The translations under genes were made by a program, and so were the position numbers. Shown here piece after piece: positions 23,704 through 25,000 of a DNA stretch of 25,322 nt. Origin of the DNA: a virus; the IMG/VR virus record IMGVR_UViG_3300027793_000267, positions 1 to 25,322 of that record; one strand, 5' to 3'. The notes under the pieces are model-generated. The model ran no database searches. It was not told the origin of the DNA and saw only the letters and a list, made by a program, of their open reading frames with translations. Position 1 is the stretch's first letter. Every line of letters starts with the position of its first letter.

Positions 23704-24173
23704 TAGTTACCGATATAAGGAATATCACAAGCATTCCACTCGTAATCTACTGTGATGTCAATAGTGCCTTGCACACCGCTCAATACATTGCTGAATTCTT
23801 CGATAAACGGAGTGAACTGAATTGGCTTGGTAATAATAACCGATTCGTCAAATATCTGACCATTCTCAATCTCGTTAACGAGGTCAGCAAATAACAACAC
23901 GCAATCGCTAATCGCGTAGCGTTGGTATTCAGTTTTCAGTTCTTTGTCGCGTGGCAAATCAGCAAAGAATACATCGAGTGAATAGGTCAATTGTCCTGCG
24001 TCAATACTGAACTGATTTGGTACAACGTGCATAAAGGGAAATTCATCTTCCTTCTCCAAATCGGCCTGTGCGATTTGTCCGTGCGTGAACTTTTTTATTA
24101 GTGCGTGGTTAGTGGCAAACTCTTTTAACTTGCCAATGATTACGTTATAAGTATAAAGTGAAGATGCGCTCAT
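23703..24173 (-). CDS. Tail terminator-like protein
   Basis: 156 residues of alpha/beta type: an N-terminal helix ('YNVIIGKLKEFATNHALIKKFTHG'), a strand pair ('FPFMHVVPNQFSIDAGQLTYSLDVFFADLP'), a helix ('AISDCVLLFADLVNEIENGQIFDES') and a C-terminal strand pair ('GTIDITVDYEWNACDIP'). This secondary-structure order and length are those of tail terminator proteins (lambda gpU-like), which cap the tail tube, and similar proteins are common in Bacteroidota phages. It begins 20 bases after the end of the chaperone frameshift extension. Confidence 0.55.
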   Translation of the reverse strand: MSASSLYTYNVIIGKLKEFATNHALIKKFTHGQIAQADLEKEDEFPFMHVVPNQFSIDAGQLTYSLDVFFADLPRDKELKTEYQRYAISDCVLLFADLVNEIENGQIFDESVIITKPIQFTPFIEEFSNVLSGVQGTIDITVDYEWNACDIPYIGN

Positions 24174-24193: not shown

Positions 24194-24475
24194 TCATTTT
24201 TTAGTAAGCAATTGTTTCTGAAATTGTGCGTAATCTATTTTGTAACTCAAATGCGCGAAGATGGTTGACGCTTGGGTATCTATTATCTTATCAAATTTAG
24301 TTACATCGCGGTCGGCAAGTTCCTCGATGACGTGAAACCATCCGTAATTCGAACTCAATTCGCTTGTTGCTGTAACGCTTCCTGCATCATCTGAATCGCC
24401 TTCTTCAACTCCGTCATCATCTGATTGTCTGAATACTCTTGGAAACGAGTCAACAATTCTTTTTCGATATTCGAA
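24194..24475 (-). CDS. -1 frame extension (T part) of the tail assembly chaperone
   Basis: The -1 frame is open from the T9 run (24474-24482) to a TGA at 24194-24196. That is 93 codons with no ATG start, so it can only be read by ribosomes shifted from the upstream gene. The first 40 codons are an acidic linker ('SDDDGVEEGDSDDAGSV'). The rest looks like a real globular piece, 'NYGWFHVIEELADRDVTKFD', then 'KIIDTQASTIFAHLSYKIDY', similar to the C-terminal part of tail assembly chaperones. It fills the otherwise unexplained 180 bases before the next gene and ends 20 bases from it. The joined product would be 247 residues (154 in frame 0 plus 93). Confidence 0.7.
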   Translation of the reverse strand, partial: FEYRKRIVDSFPRVFRQSDDDGVEEGDSDDAGSVTATSELSSNYGWFHVIEELADRDVTKFDKIIDTQASTIFAHLSYKIDYAQFQKQLLTKK

Positions 24476-24936
24476 AAAAAAACCATCGCCCCATTCGCTA
24501 TCATCAATGGCATATCGTTAAAATCGTCTGCGTTTTTTAGATGGATATTTGAATCGTAATCTTCCACCTCATAGCGGTTAACCAGTTCATTCTTGCGAGG
24601 TCTAAATAGGATGGCGAGTAGTTTGTTGAGTTGCTTTGGGAACTGATTACAATGAGCATCGAGGTCTAACCATTCGCCAAACGTTACCGCGTTAATATCA
24701 GGAACGAATCCATAACGATTCCACTTTGGAACGTGCTTCGATGGAATGCCATTCAATGCTTCCTCGAATGCTGTCTTAATCTCATTCATCTGCGTTGGTG
24801 TGAGCATCAACACTTGTGCGCGTGGTAGTTTAGTGATGGCTTGTACTTGGTTCACCAAATCGCCTTCGTTCGTTGCGAATCCAACGTACTGTCCAACGGT
24901 TATCAGTTCGGGGGATAGGTCTAATTTAATCTTCAT
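24355..24936 (-). CDS. Tail assembly chaperone, G-like (frame 0 product)
   Basis: 193 residues, soluble and mostly helical. The pattern 'LTPTQMNEIKTAFEEAL', 'GFVPDINAVTFGEWLDLDAH', 'LNKLLAILFRPRK', 'YEVEDYDS' and 'MPLMIANGAMVFFSNIEKEL' matches a family that is common in Bacteroidota siphophages and stands where the lambda G/GT-type chaperones stand. Codons 152-155 lie on the T9 run GTT-TTT-TTT-TCG, which contains the slippery heptamer T-TTT-TTT in the correct frame. Frame 0 continues for 39 more residues and stops at 24355. The start at 24936 follows TTTTAAAAT. The chaperones would bind the tape measure and recruit tube subunits during tail assembly. Confidence 0.75.
   Translation of the reverse strand: MKIKLDLSPELITVGQYVGFATNEGDLVNQVQAITKLPRAQVLMLTPTQMNEIKTAFEEALNGIPSKHVPKWNRYGFVPDINAVTFGEWLDLDAHCNQFPKQLNKLLAILFRPRKNELVNRYEVEDYDSNIHLKNADDFNDMPLMIANGAMVFFSNIEKELLTRFQEYSDNQMMTELKKAIQMMQEALQQQAN
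24460..24482 (-). promoter_or_regulatory. Programmed -1 frameshift site (T9 run with overlapping hairpin)
   Basis: T9 on the minus strand (24474-24482) contains T-TTT-TTT in the frame 0 phase. It overlaps a perfect 8-bp inverted repeat TTTTTCGA-ATA-TCGAAAAA (24460-24478). The downstream -1 frame is open for 93 codons and protein-like. The site type matches -1 frameshifting in tail chaperone genes. Confidence 0.65.
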
Positions 24937-24946
24937 ATTTTAAAAT

Positions 24947-24997
24947 AAAAAAAACACACCCCCTATGCGCCCTGTTCTTATGGGAAGGGGGGGGTGT
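24947..24997 (-). terminator. Rho-independent terminator before the tail chaperone gene
   Basis: On the minus strand ACACCCCC (24990-24997) pairs perfectly with GGGGGTGT (24956-24963), followed by G and a T8 run (24947-24954). The 26-base loop can form a small inner stem (CCCT/AGGG). It closes the transcript of the two small genes to the right. No good promoter is visible between it and the chaperone start at 24936, so partial readthrough is likely. Confidence 0.75.
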
Positions 24998-25000
24998 ATG

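Follow-up and report, generated by a model that had tools for sequence, protein, structure and literature searches.

The window, a viral DNA stretch of 25,322 nucleotides, carries on its minus strand an open reading frame at 24936-24355 with a product of 193 amino acids. Within it lies a run of nine T's (T9) at plus coordinates 24474-24482, read GTT TTT TTT TCG in frame 0. From 24475 the -1 frame runs on through 93 open codons to a stop at 24194-24196, and the part before the run spliced to this extension (24194-24475, minus strand) forms a product of 247 amino acids. The preliminary description had proposed a hidden -1 product of this gene; its account of the T9, of the open -1 frame, of the 193- and 247-residue forms and of the lack of any ATG in the -1 stretch is borne out by the sequence. 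A TTG at 24358, absent from most relatives, overlaps the frame-0 stop. The extension had also been said to fill exactly the gap to the next gene, which is nearly so, but that gene begins at 24173, 20 nt beyond the -1 stop. When frame 0 was synonymously shuffled, the -1 frame remained open across the overlap in 0.9% of trials, and the further 54 codons were open in 4.6% of Markov sequences, giving by these shuffles a joint chance of ~0.0004 (about 0.04%) that both segments are open.

The frame-0 product consists of an N-terminal domain that reaches to the T9, followed by a helical tail of ~39 residues, and matches phrog_32199, a family of unknown function (E 1.4e-6). The extension is laid out as an F-E-Y-R-K-R segment, an acidic linker and a YGW[FY]...D[VI]TKF domain, the last of which is conserved in a 43-member alignment. 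The two parts were folded apart and not as one fused protein: the AF2 model of the frame-0 product has a mean pLDDT of 89.5, and that of the extension has three main helices and a mean pLDDT of 67. Foldseek matches included no close PDB fold for either model, which does not imply a novel fold.

The only cultured relatives found by tblastn are the Nonlabens phages P12024L/S, at 26% identity, in which the run appears as C-T9-A in the same phase as in the window. The host group is apparently Bacteroidota, since these cultured relatives infect Flavobacteriia; the assignment comes from them and not from the window itself. IMG/VR scans yielded 19 close relatives and then many more with alignments, and because the FF[FL] motif of the slip site was part of one of these queries, further scans were added with either the downstream domain alone or the upstream domain alone as query, two in all. 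Both domains were mapped by HMM in three frames across the loci, and the second was found in the -1 frame adjoining the first in 295/299 loci carrying both. Slip regions were counted over 213 distinct 300-nt regions, the cultured Nonlabens phages included. Exactly nine T's are present in 211 of them: 204 have the run as NTT TTT TTT TNN, and seven, all from a single clade, have it moved one base relative to the frame (AGT TTT TTT TTG). One of the remaining regions has T10 (L162), and in the other (L255) the site was not placed automatically. At 70, 50 and 40% identity the N-terminal part resolves into 29, 13 and 8 lineages, all of which contain T9, and relatives with as little as ~25% identity still have both the run and the -1 domain, arranged in the same order. 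No prophage copy of the gene was found in two bacterial-genome scans.

A T10 collapsed to T9 at assembly, or a decaying gene, would account for the single contig (L162, 478-1242) in which T10 places both domains in one fused ORF, a locus that is either a natural shift-free variant or itself an assembly error. Such an artefact is scarcely credible for the family, however, given the agreement on T9 among 211/213 distinct regions and the cultured phages and given that frame 0 is itself constrained and stays open past the slip. With more than 200 distinct relatives, a chance open frame or a pseudogene also appears unlikely. Two plasmid records with T8/T7 were read as error-prone sequences and excluded from the counts (CP045836.1 and NZ_CP040811.1, 66-67 kb, labelled as Lysinibacillus and Escherichia plasmids); each has the phage gene twice, and both have the look of a dimerised phage genome, ~33 kb per unit, containing homopolymer errors.

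Two potential structures lie near the start and the slip site of the gene. A GC-rich hairpin (ACACCCCC...GGGGGTGT, then T8) at 24943-24998 on the minus strand stands just ahead of the ATG; of the close relatives, some (L004, L006, L011) carry it and others do not. Its core recurs elsewhere in L074, L080 and L101, and the hairpin may represent a mobile element that resembles a terminator. The inverted repeat TTTTTCGA-ATA-TCGAAAAA (24460-24478, minus strand), to which the preliminary description drew attention, is perfect and does overlap the slip site, but its core occurs in 52/77 relatives of the near, window-like clade and in 0/127 of the far clade. We therefore reject it as a general signal and regard it as clade-specific and of doubtful role.

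The extension could be read as a separate small gene, translated alone from a start near the frame-0 stop, where the window has its overlapping TTG and the Nonlabens phages have an ATG. In P12024L/S the two domains are indeed recorded as two separate hypothetical genes (40-41 and 38-39; phrog_32199 and phrog_38404), the second being a 55-aa gene that is annotated on its own because an ATG lies next to the frame-0 stop, and phrog_38404 is that short form. Yet these phages, the nearest to an own-start case, also have the T9 in the window's phase and the same domains in frame 0 and an open -1 frame. Elsewhere, no ATG, GTG or TTG lies between the slip and the conserved GW motif in 187/202 relatives (64/77 near, 123/125 far), so that the extension must be reached from upstream, and an independent start codon is rejected for nearly all relatives. 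The -1 frame is moreover conserved upstream of the frame-0 stop, with synonymous change suppressed there, and the distant homologues are fused; translation as a separate gene is accordingly very improbable. Relatives lacking both the slippery run and the -1 frame, or encoding the extension only as a gene with its own start, were looked for and none was encountered.

The fused homologues came to light through Foldseek, where the frame-0 model pointed to Flavobacterium phage 6H. Relatives of 6H encode a single ORF of ~260-300 aa, among them Duneviridae (FPSV-F7, laban6-1, Ingeline), Polaribacter phage Leef, a Microcystis phage and Bacteroides phage BT-TP2. These phrog_25418 and similar proteins match the two-domain layout of the spliced product, order included, over their full length; unlike the window gene they are encoded in one frame without T9, and they are annotated as hypothetical. 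HHalign of the fused profile against the spliced product extends over 234 columns through the slip point (probability 99.0%, E 4.1e-18), and the extension alone matches the fused family with a probability of 79%, compared with 0.1-2% for an unrelated profile. The fused homologues are thus a separate line of evidence for the two domains being parts of a single polypeptide. Downstream of the homologue, FPSV-F7 and Ingeline have a gene with a tape-measure annotation. Phage 6H itself (L310, 10044-10927; KC959568.1) has the second domain out of frame with the first, which may reflect either an error in sequencing or another kind of recoding.

Selection was gauged from dN/dS and synonymous divergence, all figures being averages over non-independent pairs and not p-value tests. 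For the near clade, dN/dS comes to 0.087 in the pre-slip part and, in the -1 frame past the frame-0 stop, to 0.043, which places the extension under strong purifying selection. Both frames show a fall in synonymous divergence, from 0.54-0.56 to 0.16-0.17, across the 39-codon overlap from the T9 to the frame-0 stop (24358-24475, minus strand), where dN/dS is ~0.55-0.60 in each, a mark of dual coding. Because synonymous change is suppressed in both frames of the overlap, both products appear to be used. The openness of frame 0 is a weak test in this clade (39 codons against 21.5 expected, mean P 0.22), so that the case for near-clade frame 0 rests on the synonymous suppression. Far-clade relatives keep frame 0 open past the slip over a median of 87 codons, where synonymous shuffling of the -1 codons predicts 11, and the short form there would have a long alternative tail, although this tail has a dN/dS near 0.94. 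Frame 0 ends near the -1 stop at far-clade loci such as L126, L129 and L130, so that the two proteins would be almost equally long and have alternative C-terminal ends. Judged from sequence comparison, the gene very probably does express two products, and the hidden -1 product proposed in the preliminary description is strongly supported by the conserved order of T9 and -1 domain, the purifying selection and the distant single-ORF family.

Slippage at the T9 may occur during translation, during transcription or in both, and RNA-polymerase slippage appears as plausible as ribosomal -1 shifting. A ribosomal shift is possible because T9 contains U UUU UUU in phase. The preliminary description had named ribosomal frameshifting, and the heptamer is correctly phased in every T9 member, but polymerase slippage fits at least as well. 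If ribosomes shift at U UUU UUU alone, in the manner of lambda, then the length of the run would be set by amino-acid constraints, and the gene would follow an established route in lambda-type tail genes (PMC5009743). No conserved stimulator for such a shift was found: downstream structure shows no conservation (mean z -0.24 and +0.22 for pseudoknot-free folds over 75 nt in 26 sampled relatives), and an SD-like motif upstream occurs in just 4/204 relatives. A purely ribosomal shift also leaves the avoidance of T10 and the depletion of nine-base runs elsewhere unexplained, and we give this reading slightly less than an even chance.

Slippage by RNA polymerase would instead yield mRNAs with 8, 9, 10 or more U from the T9, with the mRNA carrying one extra U encoding the long form. 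This reading is consistent with a run of exactly nine in 211/213 regions, nine being a length at which slippage and counter-selection are found in many bacteria (Baranov 2005, PMC1088944), and with the want of conserved downstream structure or an upstream SD-like motif. It is further consistent with the retention of T9 in the clade where the run is shifted by one base, and with the Phe codon after the run in the -1 frame, which is TTC in 77/77, thereby avoiding T10, though TTT makes up 62% of Phe codons in those loci. Other nine-base runs are depleted in the coding sequence of these phages (T9, 2 observed against 20 expected; A9, 1 against 45), although this depletion could also stem from ribosomal or replication slippage. 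Against the polymerase, an in-phase U UUU UUU always lies within the T9, so a ribosomal shift is equally possible; the amino-acid and heptamer constraints together could hold most of the T positions; and the lineages compared are related. The features of the site may favour polymerase slippage, but none is decisive, and it too is a tentative reading whose chances we place just short of even. Some IS transposases and T. thermophilus dnaX, which use transcriptional slippage at 9A/9T, likewise have a nine-A/T coding run, two products and avoidance of such runs elsewhere; they are different genes, and the window gene is a candidate for such slippage.

In relatives the terminase lies just upstream of the gene. 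In the window the gene adjoins small ORFs and a 156-aa gene, a tape-measure-like gene lies several genes away at 16563-14842 in the same direction of transcription, and a Neck1-like gene is found further along. The tape-measure-like gene (minus strand, phrog_24676) encodes only 573 aa and is followed by protease and capsid genes, so that tail genes precede head genes in the window map. Lambda-type G/GT genes usually, though not by strict definition, stand directly ahead of the tape-measure gene and after the major tail gene; the window gene does not occupy such a place.

Known tail chaperones in Pfam, PHROGs and PDB gave no significant match; Pfam Phage_TAC_7 was hit by one member at E 0.033, and chaperone-annotated matches in BFVD had E values of 0.6 or worse. 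Profile comparison with gp26/gp51, the tail chaperones of T4-like phages, gave an HHalign probability of about 2%; the resemblance is weak and N-terminal only, and the T4 proteins come from separate genes with no frameshift. Tests of homology with lambda G and with T4 gp26/gp51 yielded nothing usable; for lambda, and at first for T4, single sequences were compared, which makes those tests weak. The 'tail protein' family phrog_166, weakly matched by 19/46 members, was set aside, as it could not be linked to any known chaperone. With lambda gpG/gpGT the window gene shares the arrangement of one gene with two products, a late -1 shift that adds a domain and a phage structural-gene context, but has no detectable sequence or profile similarity. 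The lambda slip site is GGGAAAG, whereas here it is T9, with an overlap of 39-90 codons. Because two products of fixed architecture come from one tail-module gene, a G/GT-like chaperone is suggested, as the preliminary description had it. The architecture and setting fit that claim, but with no profile or structural match to a chaperone, a position beside the terminase and a tape measure that is not adjacent, we do not file the gene as a proven chaperone, and by analogy consider this function somewhat favoured.

Taken as a whole, the best explanation is likely a two-product gene that operates by slippage at T9 and has a probable role in tail assembly. Ordinary reading would give the 193-aa short form, while slippage, by a ribosome at U UUU UUU, by RNA polymerase adding one U or by both, would carry a fraction of synthesis into the -1 frame and give the 247-aa form with its second conserved helical domain; the two would share an N-terminal domain of 154 residues. 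By analogy with lambda gpG/gpGT, the short form, present in abundance, may coat the tape measure, with the tail-tube subunit recruited by the extra domain of a rare long form. Comparison among relatives shows the T9, the -1 domain, the selection on both frames and the fused homologue; from these we infer that slippage takes place, by what machinery and how often, and that the product acts as a tail chaperone. That polymerase slippage at nine T's sets the ratio of two products in a tail-assembly family, whose far-clade members make proteins of near-equal length with overlapping C-terminal alternatives of ~90 codons, is a possible but rather doubtful extension of this model.

Frameshifting tail genes are already known (PMC5009743, PMC10885494), and PMC10885494 cites a paper on T4-like tail chaperones. 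No publication on this gene family or its T9 site was found in a search that reached few subscription papers; the gene family, the invariant T9 and the far-clade overlap are new. Annotation would miss or split a two-domain protein in a large family of aquatic phages, whose hosts are apparently Bacteroidota, as the second domain is reachable only by slipping at T9. The family offers a clean system for telling polymerase from ribosome slippage: there is a cultured host-phage pair (Nonlabens P12024L/S), to which the natural variants (shifted phase, T10) and the one-frame homologue as a control add further assets, and the far clade offers ~90 codons that would be read in two frames.
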